NCBI GenBank assembly: GCA_937916515.1
Contig: CALFSX010000009.1
Location: forward strand, 1 to 64,000
DNA: 64,000 bases
From: an uncultured Planctomycetaceae bacterium
Lineage (GTDB): Bacteria; Planctomycetota; Planctomycetia; Planctomycetales; Planctomycetaceae
Direction: 5' to 3'
Shown here: positions 1,491-15,488 of the stretch, piece after piece
Layout of the letters: each line of letters begins with the position of its first letter
Numbering within the stretch: position 1 is the first letter of the stretch
Notes under the pieces: model-generated
Seen by the model: only the letters and a program-made list of their open reading frames with translations
Databases searched by the model: none
Told to the model about the DNA's origin: nothing
Program-made: the position numbers and the translations under genes

Positions 1491-3062
1491 ATGGCTGTTT
1501 CAATTCCACGTTTTACCGTGTTTGTGGTAACGCTGCTGTTTGTCGCGTCCGCTGACGCAATGGCCCAACGTTCACACAGCGGTCACTCGCATGGCTCTCA
1601 AAATCGAGGCCCCAGCACCACAAACATTGGGACCGGCAGCTTCGGTATAAGTCAACGCTGGGGAACACCAGCTGCTCGCGGGTATCAATCGCCTGGTAAT
1701 CATTCGTCATCACCCGATTGGACTTTGCGGGCGCCTTCGGGTTCAACTCGCACGCTCACATCGGGGCAGATCGTCATTCCGCGTGGTCCCGGTTCTACGT
1801 ACAGCAGGCAGTCACCCGGAATCAGCTATTCCTCAGGCCGTGGTGGATCAGTGGTTTATGGCGGTGTCGGCGGTCCGATTAACTATCATAACTATGGTGG
1901 CTATCGTACTTATGGCGTGTCGCCAATTTATAGCCAGCCATTCTATAATGGACTTTCCATTCAGTACTCAACGGGCAGTGGATTCCTTAACGCCTATGGG
2001 TACGGGAATGGCTATTACAACGGCTTTCCGGGAGTCATCGCTGCTCCGATTGTTGTTCCCTATGGCAGCTACGATTCCGGTCCGTTTTTTCCACAACAGC
2101 CGGCGCCACCGCAGCTGATTCTTCCGCCGAGTCCCGCAGCCGTAGCTGCCGAGATGGCTTATGATGCGGGCACAGCCAGTGCAGCCGAGCGACAGAATGG
2201 AGCTGTTTTGTCACAACCATTGCAAAGCGATGAGACTCCGATTTTGAATGAGTTCGGCGACGATTACAAAGCTATTCCAGAACAGCAGATTTCTGCCGTC
2301 GATCGTATTAAAAGTTTGCGTTACCAAACCTCCGGCGACCAGGCGTTTCGCCAACATGACTACGAATCTGCGGAAGCACTTTACAGGGCAGCATCGGATA
2401 CCGCCGTTGTTCGACGAGCACCCTGGTTGCGTCTGGCGTGGGCTCAGGTTGCCTTACGGAAAAACAGCGAAGCATTAGCCAGCCTGAAGACTGCGTTGCA
2501 TCTACGGGATGATCCGACAAGTTCATGGGTGGATGGAAAAGATCTGTTCGGAGTCGGCTTTGAAACGAACATGGTTAAACTTAACGAAGATCTTTGGAAG
2601 TGGTTGCAGGCTAAGCCGAATTCTACAGATCGTCTGCTGCTGGTTGCTGCGTTTCAGCAACTGCGTGGGTATGCGGGCATCTCTCAGGAACTCACGGACG
2701 CTGCGTCCAGAAATGGCCTCGACCGTGAGCTCATTAGTGCTTTGCGAGAAATATCGGCCGCGAACAACGTGGCGGGGGCCGGGCCGAATCAGCCGCCAGT
2801 TGATCAAGCTCCGCAGCCCATTGATATACCGCTTCCTCCTGTTTCGTCGGTTGATGACGGTGGGATTCGGATGATTGGCGGTCGAGTGATTTCGCCTGCG
2901 GAAACGTCGGATGCGGCGATCGGTGCTCCAGAACCTGTACTTGCCAGCGAAGAGTTTCCAGCGACGCAATCGGAAGCGAGTTCGAAGAACTTAGGTCCGT
3001 TGCCGCAGGTTTCTCCCGGACTGCCTTTGGTGATTCCGCCGATGAATTCGCCAACGCCATAA
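1491..3062 (+). CDS. Secreted Gly/Tyr/Ser-rich protein with C-terminal TPR-like region
   Basis: I do not recognise a named family. The N-terminus is a clear Sec signal peptide (RFTVFVVTLLFVASADAMA, cleavage near residue 25). Residues of about 30-190 are low-complexity and rich in Gly, Ser, Tyr and Pro, with repeats such as YGGVGG and YGYGNGYYNG. They are followed by a proline stretch (QQPAPPQLILPPSP). From about residue 270 there are one or two TPR-like helical hairpins (GDQAFRQHDYESAEALYRAA and the region around LAWAQVALRKNSEALASL). The tail is Pro/Ser-rich. Proteins of this build are common in planctomycetes and are usually annotated as hypothetical or TPR proteins. It is probably periplasmic or in the envelope. 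The start is ATG, with no strong Shine-Dalgarno visible. The gene downstream is on the same strand, 116 bp away. Confidence 0.85.
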   Translation: MAVSIPRFTVFVVTLLFVASADAMAQRSHSGHSHGSQNRGPSTTNIGTGSFGISQRWGTPAARGYQSPGNHSSSPDWTLRAPSGSTRTLTSGQIVIPRGPGSTYSRQSPGISYSSGRGGSVVYGGVGGPINYHNYGGYRTYGVSPIYSQPFYNGLSIQYSTGSGFLNAYGYGNGYYNGFPGVIAAPIVVPYGSYDSGPFFPQQPAPPQLILPPSPAAVAAEMAYDAGTASAAERQNGAVLSQPLQSDETPILNEFGDDYKAIPEQQISAVDRIKSLRYQTSGDQAFRQHDYESAEALYRAASDTAVVRRAPWLRLAWAQVALRKNSEALASLKTALHLRDDPTSSWVDGKDLFGVGFETNMVKLNEDLWKWLQAKPNSTDRLLLVAAFQQLRGYAGISQELTDAASRNGLDRELISALREISAANNVAGAGPNQPPVDQAPQPIDIPLPPVSSVDDGGIRMIGGRVISPAETSDAAIGAPEPVLASEEFPATQSEASSKNLGPLPQVSPGLPLVIPPMNSPTP

Positions 3063-3178: not shown

Positions 3179-6064
3179 ATGATGGATGCGATTGTCGAAA
3201 AATACTTTCGCTCGCAACAATCCGGCCTGTTTAAGTGGGTCGACAATGGTCGCGAATTGTGTTGGCTGGATGGCACGACAGTTTCGTTTCACGCGGAACT
3301 TGCGGTGGTTATCGAACGGCTTTCTCGTGGCAGCCTGCCGTCGTTTTCTTCCATCATTGTTGCGGTGGCCGCGTCAAGATCGACATGGCCAGCAGTCGCG
3401 CAGCGGATCACTCGACTTGTTCGAGCATTACAGGAATCTGAACTTCCGTCTTACGCGGAAGCGATGAGAAAGCATCGCTATCTTACAGATACCTGGCAGT
3501 CGTCTGCTGAAAAGTTGACATTGCTTTCCAGGTACGCTGCAGTCGAAGTGCAGACGCCGGAATCTCGTGCTGAATTGCTGGCAACGCTGTTTGATCATTT
3601 TGAAAGCGGCTATTCAGAAGATGAGCAAACGGTATTGGCGAAGGCATTCAGGGCCGGACTTCCTGAAGACTGGTTTTTTGAACGGAAAGGTGACGGCGAA
3701 ACACTAACATTGCCGTCGACGGACAAGGAAGAAGCCGAATGGCGTTCTCGCCCGCCGTTGTTTCATCGCGTATTGCACGATGTGCTGGAGCTTTTGCGAA
3801 TCGCTCGTGTGCTGGCCAGCAGTCTGCACGATTACTCAGGCGAAGATCTGAAGCAACGTGTTTCGACGGGTGTGGCGGCAGACGTTGTGGCTGTGGACGA
3901 ATCACCCTTGGATTCGCCTCAGCTTGCGGCGAATCTGCTGGATTCCTTACGCAACGATCCGGAGCTGGCTGGTTTTGCTCGATTGTCACGCAACTTAATG
4001 GCAGCGGTGACTTTGCCGAGGTCGTTGGAATCTGCGTTGGATATTCCTGCGGGCGGAATATCCGACATCAGCAATCGCGGGCAGTTGGACAAGCTACTCT
4101 TAAGCGAACTGGCATTCGACGATTTAACGCTGGCCGTTCGGATTGCGTCCAACGAAGCGATGTATATTCGGCGAGAGTCGCCACCGAATCCGCGCGTGGA
4201 ATCTCGTGCCGTGCTTATCGACAACAGTCTGCCGATGTGGGGCATTCCGAAACTGTACGCCACCGCGATGGCTATGGCGCTATGTGCAGATTCCCACACA
4301 AATTTGAAGGCCGAATGCTATCGGGCTGATGGTGATCAGTTGGTGCGGGTTTCTTTTTCAAGTCGTGATGCGGTCACTGAACAGCTGACATCGCTGGCAA
4401 CCGTTGAACATTCCGGTGCAGCTATCTCAGCGTTTGAGGATGCTGTGCTGCGGCAGTCGCATTCAGCGGAACCTGTGATTATTACTACGGGCGACGTGTT
4501 GGAGTGTTCGGGCTTTAAGCGAGCACTGGAACGCTCGACTTTGAAGAACGTGTGGGTGATTGCCGTTGAACGCGACGGTCGATTGTCGGTGTTGCAACGT
4601 ACCGTTCAGGGGACTTCTGTTCGCAAGCAGATTCAACTGCGGCTGGACGATATTTTAAGCCGACCCAACACAACGATACGTCGTTCGTTTGTTTCGGGAG
4701 AGTTGCCGGATATCTTTCGGCGTGCGGAATTTCCGTTCAGACTGTCGCATCAAACTCGTGCAGGCCGTGTGTTTGCCTGGGGTGACGAGTTGGTTGCGGT
4801 GGCGGATGATGGTCGTTTGATGTTGTGGTCCGGCCGTCGTTTGGGAGCAAAACAGATATGCGATGATCTTCCGCGGCGAGGCAAAACAAACGTGCATCTG
4901 GTTAGTCGCGATGCTGCAGCAGTTCGGTTGTTTGTTCCGGGCGAAGCGTCAGAACTGATTACTGTAAGTCGTTTTGGTGAGCAATTGAATCGGGTGGTCA
5001 TTCAAGGAAAACTGGATGGCGTACGGGACGTTCGGTCTGTGGGGGCCGCATTGTTGCTGTTTTGTATGGTCGACGGTTACGAGCGAGTAATTGCGATTGA
5101 CGAAAAAACAGGACGAACGTTGGCAAATCGTGTTTTGCCGAAGGAAGTGTATCGTAACGGCCGCTGTCTGCTGGGAAACAATAAGTGGTCCTTGCTTACA
5201 TTTGACGGCCAGGAATTGGGGGGCCAAAAGTTGCCATCGGAGTTTAGCGGTGCGAAGGACGTCGTCGAATTGGCTGCCGGTGAGTTTTTGATGATTGATA
5301 AAGCCGGCCAGATCGTCGATCCAGGCGGTGAATTACGATTCAAAGAATTTCGCAGACAAATGCCCAGAGCTGCCACAAGGCTGTTTGGATATTTGCCCGG
5401 CGGCGATCGAATTGGCGTGGCCTGGGGAGACAATGTATCCTGGGGAGACAGCGTATCTTTGGGGAACAATGCTATTCTGCTGAACGTTAAGACGGAGCAG
5501 CCTGAGTCGTTTAAGCACAGCTGGACGGGAGCTGCAGATTTTGAATTTCAGGAAGCTCGCAAAACGATTTCGATGCGTACGCCGCGCTGGAAATTTCGCC
5601 GCATCGGTATCGACGGGAATGCTGGGCATCTTGTTCTGCAGGCCGCAAGTGGTTTGTTGTTTGCAATCAAGTTCAATTCAGCATTGGCAGGAATTGAGTT
5701 GGTTGCGGCTGACCAAACAAGCCGGACCAGTCGTTTCTTTGATTTCGAATCCTGCGCAGCGCCGGATGGCGTTGGATACAGGTTGCAGGTCGCGCAGATT
5801 GCCGACGTCGGTAGTGCGTGGTTGGATTCGCGAGGACTGTTGCACTTGAAATGCGATGACGGACAGTATCCGCAAGTCAGCTTTGCGGTTCAGGATGGTC
5901 AGCTTTCCGGTTGGCTTTCAACGGGAGAAGTGTTTGGCGAAGACTATTATTTTGGTCGCAAAGACCGTAGCCTCGAACTAAAACAGGTTTCTGCGGCTGT
6001 TGCCTGGGAGTCTGCCGTTAAGCCGTTTATTGGTATTGCTCCATGGAGTTTCCACTACACCTGA
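3179..6064 (+). CDS. vWA-like / beta-propeller protein of a MoxR-vWA-bpX-type ternary system
   Basis: This is a 961-residue cytoplasmic protein with no signal peptide or membrane segment. The N-terminal part (FKWVDNGRELCWLDGTTVSF, then a Leu-rich helix SRGSLPSF followed by a small-residue helix) resembles the N-terminal region of proteins in the MoxR-vWA-beta-propeller (bpX) ternary systems described by comparative genomics. Residues of about 340-470 look like a von Willebrand A fold, with a degenerate metal site: D348-N-S at the first strand where DxSxS is expected, SGAAI in place of the Thr motif, and TTGD in place of the third Asp loop. From about residue 520 to the end, a run of short beta-rich blades (GRVFAWGDELVAVADDGRLM and similar) suggests a propeller. 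Two near-identical 18-bp units give WGDNVSWGDSV near residues 750-760. The gene overlaps the next by 22 bp, so the two are very likely co-translated. No MoxR ATPase lies in the window. The family assignment is from memory of sequence patterns; the domain order is inference. Confidence 0.62.
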   Translation: MMDAIVEKYFRSQQSGLFKWVDNGRELCWLDGTTVSFHAELAVVIERLSRGSLPSFSSIIVAVAASRSTWPAVAQRITRLVRALQESELPSYAEAMRKHRYLTDTWQSSAEKLTLLSRYAAVEVQTPESRAELLATLFDHFESGYSEDEQTVLAKAFRAGLPEDWFFERKGDGETLTLPSTDKEEAEWRSRPPLFHRVLHDVLELLRIARVLASSLHDYSGEDLKQRVSTGVAADVVAVDESPLDSPQLAANLLDSLRNDPELAGFARLSRNLMAAVTLPRSLESALDIPAGGISDISNRGQLDKLLLSELAFDDLTLAVRIASNEAMYIRRESPPNPRVESRAVLIDNSLPMWGIPKLYATAMAMALCADSHTNLKAECYRADGDQLVRVSFSSRDAVTEQLTSLATVEHSGAAISAFEDAVLRQSHSAEPVIITTGDVLECSGFKRALERSTLKNVWVIAVERDGRLSVLQRTVQGTSVRKQIQLRLDDILSRPNTTIRRSFVSGELPDIFRRAEFPFRLSHQTRAGRVFAWGDELVAVADDGRLMLWSGRRLGAKQICDDLPRRGKTNVHLVSRDAAAVRLFVPGEASELITVSRFGEQLNRVVIQGKLDGVRDVRSVGAALLLFCMVDGYERVIAIDEKTGRTLANRVLPKEVYRNGRCLLGNNKWSLLTFDGQELGGQKLPSEFSGAKDVVELAAGEFLMIDKAGQIVDPGGELRFKEFRRQMPRAATRLFGYLPGGDRIGVAWGDNVSWGDSVSLGNNAILLNVKTEQPESFKHSWTGAADFEFQEARKTISMRTPRWKFRRIGIDGNAGHLVLQAASGLLFAIKFNSALAGIELVAADQTSRTSRFFDFESCAAPDGVGYRLQVAQIADVGSAWLDSRGLLHLKCDDGQYPQVSFAVQDGQLSGWLSTGEVFGEDYYFGRKDRSLELKQVSAAVAWESAVKPFIGIAPWSFHYT

Positions 6065-9024
6065 AATACTGTTCAGAACGCCGTCACGCCGTTTGCGGGT
6101 TGTTGATTCCTGGAGACGACGTGTCAGCATGGCTGTCAGTCGCCTTGCGTGAGCAGGTTCCATTCGGCGATCAGCGGTTTCTGATTGTTGCTGAACAACA
6201 TGGCGCGGCTGCAAATGTTGTGGCGGCTCTGTGCTTGTTTCCGGCGACAACGAATGGCTGTTCGTCCCAAGTTGTTTCAGCGACATCTGCGGCTAGCCCG
6301 CTATCCATTGATTATGGTTGCCGAGCGGGTCGATTGTATTTGCCGGTTAATTCGGAACTTTCTGCTGCGATTACCGATTCAGAACTGGACGCCCTTTTGC
6401 CGGGCGGAAGATTGCCTGGAGACTCTGGCAGGTTGTTTGTGTGGCACCCAACTTGCGGACTGATCGGCTTTGATGCGGAACACGTGCTTTCTGCAGCCGA
6501 TTTGTTGTCTGGGCCGCCCGATTCAGAACGTGTTTGGGATGCTGTCGAAGTTGGACCGCAGCTTAGCCGCGCTGTGCGATCGCTAAGCCCGGAAGCATCT
6601 GCAGACTTCCTGCAAATGCTGGACGAGGGCAAGGATGATATCGGTGGCGAGTCTGAAAATATCGAGAATGTTCCTCGCGCGCCGGACGAAAAATCTGGAG
6701 CCGCTATTCGTGATGCGATGCGTGGGGTCACCGATGGGGTTGCCAAGGCGATACATGGAATAACGTCAAAACTTCCGACGGCCGAAAATGGCAACGCAAT
6801 GCTGGGCAAGTTGCATCGATGGGCTGAATCTGTGCTTGCGGGAACTGCCGGTGGCAGTGGTTCAGGAGGTCGCAAGGCATCGTCAGGGCGAATGGATTCG
6901 GGGCTGTCGACTCGACGAGAAAACGAAATCAAACGCCTGTTGAATCTGTTGAAAAATGATCCCGACAAAGGTCTGAAGTTTGCGTTGCCGCTTGGCGGCG
7001 AAGATCGCAGTCGAGGAATTTCGAGGCCCACAGATCGTTTGGGGGAGCATGATATTGATTTGCATTCGAATAGTTGGCGAGGATCGGGGCGAGGCGATTC
7101 GTGGGATCTTCCGTGGGAATATCAGGCAAAACTGCAGTTGCAATATCGCGAAATCGCTCAGCGAGAAATGCGACTGGGCAGGTACCGTCGAGCCGCCTAC
7201 ATTTACGCTCGCTTGTTGAATGACTTTACGTCAGCTGCTGGCGCGTTGGAAGCTGGTCGGCTGTATCATGACGCTGCAAGTATCTATCTTGAGCATTTAA
7301 GAGATTTCAGCAAGGCGGCTGCATGTTTTCGAAGTGGCGGTTTCTGGGAAGAAGCTCTGCAGATTTATCGCAATCACGAACGCTGGATTGCTGCCGGTGA
7401 GCTGTATCAGGAAATCGGAGACGCTGCCAAAGCTTCGGAAATGTTTCAACATGAAGTAAACGCCTGCGAACGTCGCCGCGATTACTCCACCGCAGCAACC
7501 GTGGCAGATCATCGGCTTGACAATGCGGAGCTTGCTACCGAATTGCTCATTACCGGGTGGATGCAGGGCCTGAATGGCCGCGAGTGTTTTCGGCAAATTA
7601 TGAATCTGCACGGGCGTCGAGGCATGCATCGCGAAGTGGAATCTGTGCTTCGCAACCTGACTGTATCTGATAACCTGAATACGTCGCAACTGCTTGACGC
7701 CGTGACAGTCTGCAGCGAAAACGCGATTGGCTATCCGGAAGATTCGGTTCGTATTTCAGCTCGAAGGCACACGTTTCGTCTGGCGGCTGTGTTGCTGAAG
7801 CCAGAGGATGACGGCCAGTTGTCAGAAGTTCAAAGCACTGCAGCGTTGGCGGCGCTAAGACGGCTGGATCCCGGCGATGGATTACTTCAGGCTGACGCTC
7901 ATCGTTTCGAAACCGAATTGCAGCAGCCAGCGGTACGTGTAAAGAAATCATCTCCGGTGGTCTCTTCTGAGTCGGCCAACCATCCTGGGGCGAAGCTGAT
8001 CAGCAGGATAGATCTGCCTCCCGCTGGTACTCCACCTGGCACGCGTTGGCTGGACATTGTCTGCAATGGTTCGTTTGTGTTTTATTTGGGAATAACGCCT
8101 CAAAGTACGGTCGTTTTCGCCAGGCAAACCATTGGAACACGGCTGGACGGAAGGCTGGTGACGCAGGATCGGGCGGTGCTGCTGCCGGTACCTCTGGACC
8201 TGGAAGCCAGCCAACTGGCTCTCCGATTGAATTCCAGCGACCCGGAACGAATTTGGGTTGTGCCGGTTGGTACTTCAGGTCCATGGTGTACCCCGGCTCG
8301 CAATATTCAGGCGGTGAATGAATCGGAATTCGTGATTGCCCATTTACCGGATATGGGTTCCTTGCTGGACGTGTGTGATACGTCGTCCGGATGGTTGTTT
8401 TGCCTGGATGTTTCGGCGGGAACAGGCGGTGGAAGTTTTGGGCTGAACATCATAAATTCATTCAGGCTGGTTGATCGCACCGTAGCGATTGAAAACCTGC
8501 TGGATGTTCTGGAGCCCGAAGCTTCTCCTGTAAGGTTTCGTTTGTACGTTGATGGCACGGGATTCTTCGTGGTAGCGGGACGAACTGTTGTACGTCTAAC
8601 TGCCAGTGTCAAAGACGTTCTGGATTCACAGGACGGCGCGCGCATGTCCGCGAAGGTTTTGGAAACGCTGCCATTTTCGCCCATCAATATGACAGTGTCG
8701 CCCAACAGCACGATGACTCGTCTTGTCTTTTCTTTTGAGGAAGGGATGCGAGTTGTTTGGAAATCGGCTTATGGGAGTTGTTTATTCGGGCATGATCTTG
8801 TTCGCCCGGTGACTGCTTTTTCCAGCAACGGAATTCTGGCTGCCGCGTGTGCTGTAAGTAATCGAATCGATTTTTATCGCCTGTCACGCGGGCAGGCAAC
8901 GCTTGTTGAATCGACGGTGGCATCGGAATCCGTCACACATCTGACGTGCGGACCAGCCCCCAATCAGATTCTGGCGTTTCATCCCGGTGGCGGGATTTCT
9001 CAGTACGCCATTCCGTTTAGATGA
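6043..9024 (+). CDS. Large helical-repeat / beta-propeller protein, bpX6-like partner
   Basis: This is a 993-residue protein without a signal peptide or clear membrane segment. Residues 1-150 form a compact domain (SERRHAVCGLLIPGDDVSAW, later RLYLPVNSELSAAITDSELD). It resembles the N-terminal module of bpX6-type proteins of the MoxR-vWA-beta-propeller ternary systems. A flexible linker follows, including GGSGSGGRKASSG near residue 275. Residues of about 350-560 are alpha-helical repeats of the TPR/coatomer type (REMRLGRYRRAAYIYARLL, LYHDAASIYLEHLRDFSKAA, LYQEIGDAAKASEMF). From about 650 to the end is a beta-rich, propeller-like region (TRWLDIVCNGSFVFYLGITP). The start ATG lies inside the preceding gene, giving a 22-bp overlap and implying translational coupling. 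The pair forms an isolated two-gene unit facing an HD hydrolase on the other strand. A scaffold or regulated-assembly role is inference only. Confidence 0.6.
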   Translation: MEFPLHLKYCSERRHAVCGLLIPGDDVSAWLSVALREQVPFGDQRFLIVAEQHGAAANVVAALCLFPATTNGCSSQVVSATSAASPLSIDYGCRAGRLYLPVNSELSAAITDSELDALLPGGRLPGDSGRLFVWHPTCGLIGFDAEHVLSAADLLSGPPDSERVWDAVEVGPQLSRAVRSLSPEASADFLQMLDEGKDDIGGESENIENVPRAPDEKSGAAIRDAMRGVTDGVAKAIHGITSKLPTAENGNAMLGKLHRWAESVLAGTAGGSGSGGRKASSGRMDSGLSTRRENEIKRLLNLLKNDPDKGLKFALPLGGEDRSRGISRPTDRLGEHDIDLHSNSWRGSGRGDSWDLPWEYQAKLQLQYREIAQREMRLGRYRRAAYIYARLLNDFTSAAGALEAGRLYHDAASIYLEHLRDFSKAAACFRSGGFWEEALQIYRNHERWIAAGELYQEIGDAAKASEMFQHEVNACERRRDYSTAATVADHRLDNAELATELLITGWMQGLNGRECFRQIMNLHGRRGMHREVESVLRNLTVSDNLNTSQLLDAVTVCSENAIGYPEDSVRISARRHTFRLAAVLLKPEDDGQLSEVQSTAALAALRRLDPGDGLLQADAHRFETELQQPAVRVKKSSPVVSSESANHPGAKLISRIDLPPAGTPPGTRWLDIVCNGSFVFYLGITPQSTVVFARQTIGTRLDGRLVTQDRAVLLPVPLDLEASQLALRLNSSDPERIWVVPVGTSGPWCTPARNIQAVNESEFVIAHLPDMGSLLDVCDTSSGWLFCLDVSAGTGGGSFGLNIINSFRLVDRTVAIENLLDVLEPEASPVRFRLYVDGTGFFVVAGRTVVRLTASVKDVLDSQDGARMSAKVLETLPFSPINMTVSPNSTMTRLVFSFEEGMRVVWKSAYGSCLFGHDLVRPVTAFSSNGILAAACAVSNRIDFYRLSRGQATLVESTVASESVTHLTCGPAPNQILAFHPGGGISQYAIPFR

Positions 9025-11711: not shown

Positions 11712-14700
11712 TTACCGCCGCCGCCCTTCCGACAATGATCGCTGGTAGAGTTCCAGCAGGTCTTTGTACTGTGATGGCGGTGCGGAACGTTGAGTTGTTG
11801 TGTCCTGTTGTTCGATATCGCGATCCGTTTTTCCAACTCGTTCTTTGGGAGCAGCTTGCAGATTGAGACTTTTCAGCAGCTCTTCAACTCGACGACGCTG
11901 CAATTGGCGAGCTTTGGAGTCTGCATCACCTTCTTCTTTTAAGGTGTTGAGTTGTTGTTGCATTCGATCGCTGAATTCTTTCAGCTGGTCTTCCGTCCAG
12001 CCCAGTTCGTCCAGCAATTCCTGATCAACGGTGCCTCGTTCGATATCTTTCTGCAGTCGTTTCAGTACCAGGTCAGCTGCTTGAGCGGCGTCCTGAACGT
12101 TGGGGTCGTCGGCTTTGAACGGTTTAGCCGCTTCTTCACCGCCGGAGCCTGATCCCGGTTTGTTTTCGTCGCCACCAGGCTGATCCTGTCCAGATGTGTT
12201 GGAACCACCACCGCCAGCCGGATTTTTTCCGCCGCGACCGCCATTGCCTGCTTTGCTTTGCTCACCTTTAGAGTTTGATTTGCCTTCTCCTCCTGGCTTT
12301 CCGCCTTCCTTGCCAGCCTGATCGCCGCCTTCCTGTCCGCCCTGTTGGCCTTCTTTTCCTCCTTGTTTGCCGCCCTCCTGTCCCTGTTCACCAGGTTTTT
12401 CGCCCTGTTGTTGGCCCTCCTGTCCCTGCTCGCCAGGCTTGTCGCCCTGTTGTTGGCCCGTCTTCTGGTCTCCTGGCTTGCCACCCTCCTGGCCTGATTG
12501 CTTGCCACCGTCCTGTCCCTGCTGACCGGGCTTGTTTCCTTGCTGTTGTCCGTCCTGTCCCTGCTGACCGGGCTTGTTTCCTTGCTGTTGTCCGTCCTGT
12601 CCCTGCTGACCAGGCTTATTTCCTTGCTGTTGTCCGTCCTGTCCCTGCTGACCAGGCTTGTTTCCTTGCTGTTGTCCGTCCTGTCCCTGCTGTCCGGGCT
12701 TGTTGCCTTGCTGTTGTCCGTCCTGCCCCTGCTGACCGGGCTTGTTTCCTTGCTGTTGTCCGTCTTGTCCCTGCTGACCGGGCTTGTTTCCTTGCTGTTG
12801 TCCGTCTTGTCCCTGCTGACCGGGCTTGTTTCCTTGTTGTTGTCCGTCTTGTCCCTGCTGACCGGGCTGGTTGCCTTGTTGTTCACTTTGCTGTTGCTTG
12901 TTGGTGTCTGCGTTCTCACCATTTTGCGGTGTTGTTTCGTTGCCAGAGTCCGGCTGCTTCTGATCGTCCATCGCAGCATTGCCGCTGCCAGGCTCGGCAG
13001 TTTTATCTGGATTCTTTTCGGACGTGCCATCTGCGTCGTTCGACTTTGGATCCTGCTGGCTTTCGTCAGATGCGTCGTCAGTTGAATTCTCTTTGCCCGC
13101 TTTTTCTGTTGCGGGTTTATCGTTGTTGGTTTCGGAACCGTCTGCTGATTGGTTTCCCTTCAGGTTTTCGTTCGCCGCTGAAGCGTCTGCGGTTGAGTCG
13201 TCTTTTTCGTTTGCCTTTTCTTTGGCAGGGTCCATCAGTTGGTCTGGCGACACTCCATCGGTGGCATCATCTGTTTTGCTATCAGTTTGATTGCTGTCGT
13301 TGGAATTATTGCTGGATGCATTTTGAGGCCCCGTATCATCACCCTTCTTGATTTCAGGGGATGGATCGCTGGGCGAGTCGCCTGTCGATTTACGAGTTTC
13401 TTTTTCCTTGTAGCTTTCCAATAGACGCTGCATGGCGTCGCTATCGTCCATTGGGGACGAAGGCTTGTTTGAGGGCTTGCCTTGGTCGGATGATGATTTT
13501 CCGCTGGCAGCATCGTTCGATGAGTCGCTGGGTGTGTTGTCGCCGGTTTGCCCTGTCGGCTTGTCTGTGGATTCGCCGCCTTCTCCCTGTTTCTGCGTCT
13601 GATTGCCGGTGGCGTTTTCTGAGTTGCCGGACTCACTGCCGTCTGATTGTTTCCCAGACTGGCCCGCTTGTTCACCGGCTTCTGCTGAGCCGTTGGGGGA
13701 TTTGCTGGCATTGCCGGATTGGTCGCCATCTTTCGGTGCGTCGTTGGGCGACGCATTTTCGTCGGCTGCAGGGGGCTGATTGTTGTCTTTGGGCTTTGTT
13801 GGATCGTCTGCCTGTTGTTGTTCTGCATTGCGTTCGCGTTGTTGTTGTTCCTGAAACTCTTTGTCTCTGGCAAGCTGCTTTTTAACTTCATCTTCAGAAA
13901 TGGGAGCCTGGATTTCGAACTGCAACGTTCCTGAACGCGACTGACTTCCCAGCGGCGGCTTGTTGTCGCGAGCGGTAATGTAGTAGCGAACGACGTCGCC
14001 TTGTTTCAGTTCAAGTGGTTCCAGATCAAACTCCCACGTTCCGGTCCACGACTTTTGCAGGCTTTGACGCGTGGCATCAAACAGTGGTTCCGGGGTTCGC
14101 AGTTGTCCATTGACTTCGTAATTCAGTTTGACAGAACGCAGCAGGAAATCCGGGTCTTCGGCTTCAACAAGCAGTGGCACAACAGCATTTGCGGCCACCT
14201 GGAGATCTCGAATCGGGTCGATCAGTTTTACGATGGGAGCCTTATCCGGACGAATGTTGACTCCGTAAACAGTCGGTTGTGGATCCGTACGACCGATTTC
14301 ATCTTCCACTTCAATGCGATAGTACCTGGGAGACGTTCCGTCCTGTCGCAGGTTTAATGGGAAGCGTGCGTTAAGCTTTGTTCCCTGAACTTCCAATGAG
14401 AACTCTTCGGCCGGCACGGTAAAACTCGGGTCGTCGCTGAATCTTATTGAAGCAGAACTTAATGGCACGTTTGGTTCCGCAGCCAGAATTACTTCGGAAC
14501 CTTCCCATGCGTCAATGTTGCCGTTTTCTGTTGTCACACCAACCAGCGACATATAGTCTGGATATCGATAAGTCAGCTGCAAAACGCTGGCGGTTGGCGG
14601 TTGATCGATCGTGACCAGAAAGTCTTCAGTCTGGGCGTCTCCTGCTGTAATTCGATAAGTAAAATTCTGCCGCAGTCCTCGATCTGACGCCCCTGTCAGT

Positions 14701-15488
14701 AGAACTCGAAATCTGCCGTCGCCTTCAGCGGGCTGCATCGTGAACTTTTCGTCGACGTATGTTTTGTCAGCGGTTGTGTACAACACCACAACTTCATCGG
14801 GCACGTTTCCGCCAATGTCTGCAATAACTTCCAGTTCTGTGCCTGCTTGAATAACGGCCGTTCCTGGCTGAACTTTTAGTATTCGGGTCTGCGTGGCAAC
14901 CGCGGCGTTGGCAACCGTTAATGGACGCAACAGGTTGATGGCTTTGGGACTGAAGACCGCATACAGGCACGTGGAAAGTACAAGTCCAAACAGCACAAAA
15001 CCCAGCTGCATCAGCCAGCGTCGATCGATCGCTTCGTCCAGATTAACTTTGGCCAGTCCCACTGCCGCGCGTTTTTCGATTGTTCTGCGAATAGAATCGG
15101 ATGCTCCCGCACCGGACGCGTTTAAGTCGACAAGGCTAAGCAGCGAGCCGTTCATGCCTCGGCTTTCGTTGTCCAGCATGCGAGCTGCATACAACGCACT
15201 TACTTCGGTCGTCCACGGTCGAATGACATAGCGGTAGACGATGTAAGCACACGAAGCGAGAACCAGCGTCAGCATGGCGGCTCGAGTAAACGGGCGGAAG
15301 CCACCGGTGACAACCCAGTGGTCAAAAATTGTGAAGACCAGTACATAGCCGATCAACAGCACTCCAGCCAGCAACAGAGCTGTCAACAGGTCTGTCCATT
15401 TGATCCGATCTCTGGCGGCTTTGATGCGATGCTCAATATATTCGTCGCAATCAGCGTAAGGGCTGGATGGCTCTGCTGCAGTTGACAT
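11712..15488 (-). CDS. Giant DUF4175-like membrane protein with Gln/Gly-rich tandem repeats
   Basis: This is a 1258-residue protein. Residues of about 30-180 contain three hydrophobic segments (LLTALLLAGVLLIGYVLVFT, MLTLVLASCAYIVYRYV, MQLGFVLFGLVLSTCLYAVF). They anchor a large exported beta-rich region up to about residue 530, with Ig-like or DUF4175-like stretches (TEDFLVTIDQPPTASVLQLTY). Then comes a long charged coil (KKQLARDKEFQEQQQRERNA), a Ser/Asn/Asp-rich disordered section, and about nine 14-residue repeats built on PGQQGQDGQQQGNK. After further Gly/Gln/Lys-rich sequence, the C-terminal 130 residues become helical (LDELGWTEDQLKEFSDRMQQ). Planctomycete homologues often sit near MoxR, DUF58 and vWA (BatA-like) genes; none is adjacent here. 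An envelope-spanning or cell-surface structural role is inference. The start is ATG, giving MSTAAEP. Confidence 0.85.
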   Translation of the reverse strand: MSTAAEPSSPYADCDEYIEHRIKAARDRIKWTDLLTALLLAGVLLIGYVLVFTIFDHWVVTGGFRPFTRAAMLTLVLASCAYIVYRYVIRPWTTEVSALYAARMLDNESRGMNGSLLSLVDLNASGAGASDSIRRTIEKRAAVGLAKVNLDEAIDRRWLMQLGFVLFGLVLSTCLYAVFSPKAINLLRPLTVANAAVATQTRILKVQPGTAVIQAGTELEVIADIGGNVPDEVVVLYTTADKTYVDEKFTMQPAEGDGRFRVLLTGASDRGLRQNFTYRITAGDAQTEDFLVTIDQPPTASVLQLTYRYPDYMSLVGVTTENGNIDAWEGSEVILAAEPNVPLSSASIRFSDDPSFTVPAEEFSLEVQGTKLNARFPLNLRQDGTSPRYYRIEVEDEIGRTDPQPTVYGVNIRPDKAPIVKLIDPIRDLQVAANAVVPLLVEAEDPDFLLRSVKLNYEVNGQLRTPEPLFDATRQSLQKSWTGTWEFDLEPLELKQGDVVRYYITARDNKPPLGSQSRSGTLQFEIQAPISEDEVKKQLARDKEFQEQQQRERNAEQQQADDPTKPKDNNQPPAADENASPNDAPKDGDQSGNASKSPNGSAEAGEQAGQSGKQSDGSESGNSENATGNQTQKQGEGGESTDKPTGQTGDNTPSDSSNDAASGKSSSDQGKPSNKPSSPMDDSDAMQRLLESYKEKETRKSTGDSPSDPSPEIKKGDDTGPQNASSNNSNDSNQTDSKTDDATDGVSPDQLMDPAKEKANEKDDSTADASAANENLKGNQSADGSETNNDKPATEKAGKENSTDDASDESQQDPKSNDADGTSEKNPDKTAEPGSGNAAMDDQKQPDSGNETTPQNGENADTNKQQQSEQQGNQPGQQGQDGQQQGNKPGQQGQDGQQQGNKPGQQGQDGQQQGNKPGQQGQDGQQQGNKPGQQGQDGQQQGNKPGQQGQDGQQQGNKPGQQGQDGQQQGNKPGQQGQDGQQQGNKPGQQGQDGGKQSGQEGGKPGDQKTGQQQGDKPGEQGQEGQQQGEKPGEQGQEGGKQGGKEGQQGGQEGGDQAGKEGGKPGGEGKSNSKGEQSKAGNGGRGGKNPAGGGGSNTSGQDQPGGDENKPGSGSGGEEAAKPFKADDPNVQDAAQAADLVLKRLQKDIERGTVDQELLDELGWTEDQLKEFSDRMQQQLNTLKEEGDADSKARQLQRRRVEELLKSLNLQAAPKERVGKTDRDIEQQDTTTQRSAPPSQYKDLLELYQRSLSEGRRR
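12508..12885 (-). repeat. 42-bp in-frame minisatellite, about nine units
   Basis: About nine near-identical 42-bp units lie inside the giant membrane protein gene and encode PGQQGQDGQQQGNK-type 14-mers. Units differ by only a few mostly synonymous changes (for example cttgtttcc against cttgttgcc), which implies recent expansion by slippage or unequal recombination. The antisense strand also stays open here, producing an artefactual Leu/Ser-rich frame. Confidence 0.95.

Follow-up and report, generated by a model that had tools for sequence, protein, structure and literature searches.

The MoxR-vWA-beta-propeller (bpX) ternary systems, which span several phyla, are treated as subsystem 4 by Kaur et al. 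(2020; PMC7159879) and are known by the one gene neighbourhood that their components share. According to that paper, a GXXXTAKS P-loop is frequent in the MoxR of these systems, some of the vWA domains lack one or both aspartates, a third component with a membrane-spanning segment is described, and pairing of the two propellers is suggested. RavA and ViaA of Escherichia coli, located at the inner membrane (PMC9489729), are also close to the proteins discussed here and are encoded by overlapping neighbour genes. Neither a description of split bpX operons nor an experimental study of bpX systems turned up in the literature searched, which did not extend to subscription papers or to the supplementary files of Kaur et al.

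Here we analyse a gene pair from an uncultured Planctomycetaceae bacterium (assembly GCA_937916515.1, a draft of 343 contigs, hereafter G000). The window, i.e. the whole stretch of DNA analysed, comprises the first 64,000 nucleotides of contig CALFSX010000009.1 (C9; 77.2 kb). Open reading frame (ORF) coordinates place a vWA-beta-propeller protein of 961 amino acids at 3179..6064 (+) and a third component of 993 amino acids at 6043..9024 (+), with a 22-bp gene overlap at 6043..6064 (+), in agreement with a preliminary description made from the sequence alone. The resemblance to a bpX ternary system remarked upon in that description was borne out by Pfam matches to bpX1 and bpX3 above the curated cut-offs. 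The genes of G000 share with the described systems their families, architectures, GXXXTAKS P-loop and degenerate vWA site, but MoxR and bpX2 are found on another contig (C138) and the vWA and bpX3 genes on C9. Because its genes are not linked, we class the G000 system as a dispersed variant rather than a standard member. We consider it probable that the window pair is the capture half of one bpX system, and that the motor half has its own locus in G000 as the result of a break in an operon that is usually uninterrupted.

MoxR and bpX2 at a second locus

A dedicated MoxR and a bpX2 protein are encoded in G000, away from the vWA-bpX3 pair. The bpMoxR search of the genome returned 17 matches at E <= 0.01, none of them on the window's contig; the best, on C138, scored 317 bits and the next 58 bits. 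The C138 MoxR is a 432-residue ORF with intact P-loop (GPPGTAKS) and Walker B motifs, and the same P-loop is found in 66 of the 67 MoxR proteins of the named loci (described below). Its closest solved structure is RavA (PDB profile search, E 9e-57; hhalign E 5.2e-40). The next ORF shares 4 bases with the 3' end of the MoxR gene and encodes bpX2 (E 3.5e-45). In the whole genome, bpX1, bpX2 and bpX3 have a single match each above cut-off. The preliminary description had proposed a stripped-down or split form with the MoxR encoded elsewhere. The split was recovered, whereas "stripped-down" does not fit a genome that holds both MoxR and bpX2 in one dedicated copy each, bpX4 perhaps excepted.

Both loci lie mid-contig. 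The MoxR-bpX2 pair occupies 17.5–19.6 kb of C138 (32.8 kb), flanked by a thymidine kinase gene and a gene that we take, by sequence recognition, to be glycogen-synthase-like, and the vWA-bpX3 pair lies 3–9 kb into C9. This glycogen-synthase-like gene and an HD-domain gene on C9 are each matched in 8/8 genomes of the genus (66–77% identity excluding self), and the G+C contents of the two contigs are 0.53 and 0.52. In quick trees, with support from the Shimodaira-Hasegawa-like approximate likelihood ratio test (SH-aLRT) only and with vWA matches of <=400 and MoxR matches of <=230 profile positions excluded, G000 grouped with G005, G064, G066, G145, G152 and G156 for MoxR, and with G064, G065, G066, G145 and G156 for vWA, each at an SH-aLRT of 100. 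MoxR and vWA distances were strongly correlated across 48 genomes, five of which are Bacteroidota loci (Mantel r 0.90; largest of 2000 permutations 0.36). The agreement of the two trees shows that the separated halves were inherited together and, combined with the genus-wide genes on both contigs, that both belong to this lineage. Gene order around both loci is scrambled within the genus, and the ancestral site is not visible.

Position of the break in relatives

A single-protein scan of genome contigs found no relative, whereas an alignment scan yielded 132, of which 80 were kept as named loci; by record title these derive from Planctomycetota, Bacteroidota, Verrucomicrobia, Wallbacteria, one Acidobacteria metagenome-assembled genome and others. 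Alignments A4 and A5 hold 74 and 60 of these 80 loci, and A6 holds 30 of 75 rows. The synteny search that the preliminary description had proposed thus recovered homologous pairs with a linked MoxR: wherever the genes share one stretch their order is MoxR-bpX2-vWA-bpX3, with adjacency in 70 loci for MoxR/bpX2, 73 for bpX2/vWA and 70 for vWA/bpX3, the remainder being mostly contig ends. Upstream of MoxR there is a fifth gene, which directly neighbours it in 61 named loci and does not in 6; the one member of this family that was scanned (L168) is bpX4 (PF19920; E 2.7e-43). The usual order is bpX4-MoxR-bpX2-vWA-bpX3.

The frequency of the break was estimated in a family set of 170 genomes, with thresholds of E <= 1e-50 for MoxR and E <= 1e-10 for vWA. 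MoxR was found in 42/170 genomes and vWA in 44/170, with both in 40; bpX2 and vWA are adjacent in 34 of these 40 and broken apart at that junction in six, G000 included. G108 and G178 were counted as adjacent, their contig breaks falling between MoxR and bpX2. In G000, G166 and G097 both halves are mid-contig with bpX2 and vWA apart. In G156, MoxR stands at a contig start and the 8 kb behind bpX2 hold no vWA gene; in G095, the 3 kb before vWA hold no bpX2, and 200 bases separate the end of its bpX2 gene from the edge of a contig. G013 is split three ways, with MoxR, bpX2 and vWA on three contigs (L060, L241 and L046). The split genomes are scattered over lineages: six changes between split and linked states were counted on the MoxR tree, and eight on the vWA tree with two MoxR-less genomes (G065 and G160) scored as split, G152 (contig end) being omitted from both counts. 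Of the 80 named loci, 52 are not shared with these family genomes; all 50 of them that could be judged have bpX2 next to vWA, and the other two end at the vWA gene.

Across the family junctions, MoxR/bpX2 is adjacent in 39 loci and broken in one genome, and bpX2/vWA is broken in 10 genomes (one through a partial vWA match) versus 34 adjacent. The bpX4/MoxR junction is also often broken (six genomes; in G015 bpX4 is only 2 kb away). bpX4 remains with MoxR in the split genomes G166, G097 and G095 and is not beside MoxR in G000, G005 and G013. Breaks between vWA and bpX3 are seen in G097, G106 and G168, where it should be considered that G168, like G182, has partial vWA matches only. Fisher tests of the bpX2/vWA breaks gave p 0.008 against MoxR/bpX2, p 0.07 against vWA/bpX3 and p 0.41 against bpX4/MoxR; these values are only suggestive because the genomes are not independent.

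Several individual loci add to this picture. In G097 (L062) and G106 (L090) no bpX3 follows vWA although several kb of contig do. Apart from its dedicated MoxR, G097 carries two bpMoxR-like matches that score 196 and 154 bits (G097:C244 and G097:C112; L223, L248 and L249), perhaps another ternary system; MoxR profile matches below 150 bits were excluded from the tables. Two otherwise linked loci have extra sequence precisely between bpX2 and vWA (L147:7778-8873 and L174:8627-9583), the gap being 1.1 kb in L147 and 1.5 kb in L174. The former holds a 113-amino-acid ORF without a Pfam match, and the latter an opposite-strand ORF of 319 amino acids with a weak Yae1_N match below cut-off. Such insertions are possible early steps toward a split.

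Domains of the two proteins and the degenerate metal site

The vWA protein, whose orthologues sit between bpX2 and bpX3 in relatives, was modelled with AlphaFold from window and related-locus sequences only, as was the third component. The vWA model (75-row alignment) has a mean predicted local distance difference test score (pLDDT) of 86.6 and a predicted template modelling score (pTM) of 0.60, and divides into four parts. The N-terminal helical domain (residues 1-323; 3179..4147, +) holds a bpX0 match at residues 32-170 that falls slightly below the Pfam cut-off (E 5.1e-5; 24.1 bits against 27); the stretch is helical in the model, and bpX0 is matched at E <= 0.1 by 9/9 members of alignment A1 (the window protein and eight relatives). 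It is followed by a vWA-like alpha/beta domain (residues 342-486; 4202..4636, +), a beta-propeller-like region (residues ~520-865; 4736..5773, +) and a C-terminal bpX1 domain (residues 876-951; 5804..6031, +; E 1.4e-11). Our reading is that bpX0 and bpX1 are the domains that Kaur et al. give to the vWA component. An 18-base direct repeat (2.8 copies) lies within the propeller part of the gene at window 5421-5471.

In the third component, Pfam places a bpX3 domain at residues 4-193 (6052..6621, +; E 2.8e-21). The model (mean pLDDT 82.4, pTM 0.48) shows a small alpha/beta domain, a helical linker, TPR-like helical repeats (residues 358-627; 7114..7923, +) and a WD40-type beta-propeller (residues 643-993; 7969..9021, +). 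TPR models match the window protein at E 0.19 or worse, and some of the nine members of alignment A2 at best E 0.00025. Its hydropathy peaks at 1.46, and values of at least 1.6 occur within the first 400 residues in 26 of 61 aligned rows. Given the modest pTM values, the domain arrangement is not reliably predicted in either model.

The structural features proposed in the preliminary description fared unequally. Its propeller-like C-terminus of the second protein is clear (VIA Z 21.3, root-mean-square deviation (rmsd) 3.6, 290 residues aligned), its helical repeats are seen in the model, and the propeller-like second half of the first protein was recovered with a middling score (best VIA Z 11.0, rmsd 5.0, 243 residues aligned over 522-790). 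The vWA fold was recovered in topology and through a weak ViaA profile match only; the listed Foldseek and VIA matches are all propellers, and the fold is therefore unconfirmed by fold search. The Pfam scan also proposed there gave bpX1 and bpX3 above cut-off, with bpX0 just below.

In the model the vWA segment runs strand, helix, hairpin, helices and strand, with D348 directly behind the first strand. Aligned against ViaA, the 75-row profile places D348-N-S on D-T-S (hhalign E 0.0043, probability only 7.9%); with unrelated controls the E values were 0.25 and 0.49. ViaA carries a canonical DTSGS, whereas residues 348-352 of the window protein read D-N-S-L-P, the degenerate motif with proline at the second serine that had been noted from the sequence. 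ViaA has 483 amino acids, and the propeller parts of the window protein are without counterpart in the alignment. The putative metal ion-dependent adhesion site (MIDAS)-type loop, D348-N-S-L-P-M-W-G (4220..4243, +), was examined by column counts over the 75 rows: D348 is retained in 74, W354-G355 is invariant, residue 350 is most often Gly (46 rows), followed by Thr (19) and Ser (9), and residue 352, the second serine of DxSxS, is most often Arg (57), followed by Lys (11) and Pro (6), the window protein being among the last. The acidic position 439, behind the fourth strand, is not strict (D in 37/75, E in 18/75). Since the second-serine position is Arg or Lys in 68/75 rows and Pro in 6/75, the alignment indicates that the weak metal site is a family-wide trait and not peculiar to the window protein. 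Metal-independent ligand binding by the putative vWA domain is plausible.

The window proteins were also compared with the FtsH-containing ternary systems, whose ivWA domain (PF19997) gave a weak match at residues 290-315 (E 0.028, below cut-off); the window proteins carry bpX1 and bpX3 domains instead. Two neighbouring genes are mentioned for completeness. The upstream gene at window 1491-3062 was considered as a part of the system, its homologue in G005 lying ~4.5 kb from MoxR-bpX2. It occurs in 8/8 genus and 26/170 family genomes and is taken as a mere neighbour because 20 of the 26 carriers lack MoxR and vWA matches. At window 11712-15488 (-), a 1258-amino-acid ORF has a low-complexity middle derived from about nine 42-base repeats (12508-12883) and no Pfam match at E <= 0.01.

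Alternative explanations and predicted role

Several results weigh against a single bpX system divided between two loci. The bpMoxR cut-off (27 bits) is unspecific, being exceeded in 12/14 control genomes, and consequently it is by its 317 bits alone that the dedicated MoxR stands apart from other MoxR proteins. Unlike in the standard operon, bpX4 accompanies neither half in G000: it was absent beside MoxR and from contigs C9 and C138, the two that were searched. When the halves of the six split genomes were paired, the true assignment ranked 7th of 720 and not first, and the agreement of the trees speaks for joint inheritance and not for contact between the halves. Of the other seven genomes in the genus, six lack both MoxR and vWA, and the seventh (G005) has MoxR-bpX2 with no vWA match. 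When PDB sequences were searched with the vWA segment, three matches came up, with no vWA protein among them, and the vWA assignment, drawn from the predicted model and the weak profile match, has the weakest support of all the assignments made here. PADLOC returned no model at E <= 0.01 for the vWA, bpX3 and bpX2 proteins, and for MoxR only matches of E 0.0016–0.0088.

An artefact of assembly or binning, with the operon in reality continuous, might be suspected in a draft of 343 contigs, and G108 and G178 look split only through a contig end between MoxR and bpX2. This is scarcely credible for G000, where both halves lie between open genes away from contig ends, on contigs of like G+C content that carry genus-wide genes; a further five genomes holding both halves are also interrupted at this junction. 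It is unlikely, although less so, that the halves are relics of a system dead since the split and now being lost. The losses within the genus, where only 1/8 genomes holds both MoxR and vWA, the absence of bpX4 beside MoxR, and a TGA in the MoxR frame of G005 (L069:4769-5980; the frame also has an extra run of Glu codons where the G000 MoxR reads E-D-E) are compatible with decay, as is the lowish retention of strongly conserved columns (0.87 for the vWA protein, 7th from the bottom of 75; 0.91 for the third component, 13th of 61). However, relatives with linked genes go lower than these values (to 0.785 and 0.805, in each case at the linked locus L208), all four ORFs in G000 are open at full length, and the P-loop and Walker B motifs are intact. 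That the vWA-bpX3 pair works without any MoxR, as a stripped-down receptor, is very improbable. G065 and G160 do keep vWA-bpX3 without bpMoxR (E <= 1e-20) or bpX2 (E <= 0.001), but G000 holds both; moreover, the G160 pair may be decaying, as its vWA match lacks approximately the first 105 profile positions, and G065 is 94% complete, with a contig ending 2 kb before the vWA gene. A related proposal, which we regard as quite unlikely, is that bpX systems consist of two machines whose union is one of convenience: bpX4-MoxR-bpX2 as an ATPase module and vWA-bpX3 as a receptor or scaffold module. Each could be encoded and regulated, and perhaps used, on its own, and the receptor of some planctomycetes would then act without a dedicated MoxR or with another of the many MoxR proteins of the genome.

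The role of the system is a separate matter. A housekeeping assembly chaperone in the style of RavA-ViaA or NorQ-NorD is a serious possibility, though on balance a somewhat doubtful one: the MoxR is clearly RavA-like, the Pfam matches of the MoxR, bpX2, vWA and bpX3 proteins include no effector domain, and PADLOC offers no model for three of them. On the other hand, the system is accessory and patchily distributed, both in the family and within the genus, and Kaur et al. infer a conflict role from the variable third component (PMC7159879). We consider a conflict role a little more likely than housekeeping assembly.

If the two loci of G000 do encode one system, the C138 MoxR would assemble into an AAA+ ring of the RavA type, partnered by bpX2, and the vWA-propeller and TPR-propeller proteins would pair as a capture scaffold. 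The vWA domain, its metal site weakened, may bind a client or the third component. By analogy with the model for NorQ-NorD, ATP hydrolysis by the ring might then remodel the capture complex; cryo-electron microscopy of NorQ-NorD supports a model whereby a linker of the vWA partner is twisted and stretched by the ATPase (PMC13036017). Halves made from separate loci would have to meet after synthesis.

Surveys that rely on gene neighbourhoods will overlook or misassign dispersed systems of the G000 kind. Furthermore, the positions of the breaks hint at which parts belong together, MoxR being kept with bpX2 and the bpX2/vWA junction being broken more often; the pattern across the family predicts two sub-complexes, MoxR-bpX2 and vWA-bpX3, that may be separately purifiable.

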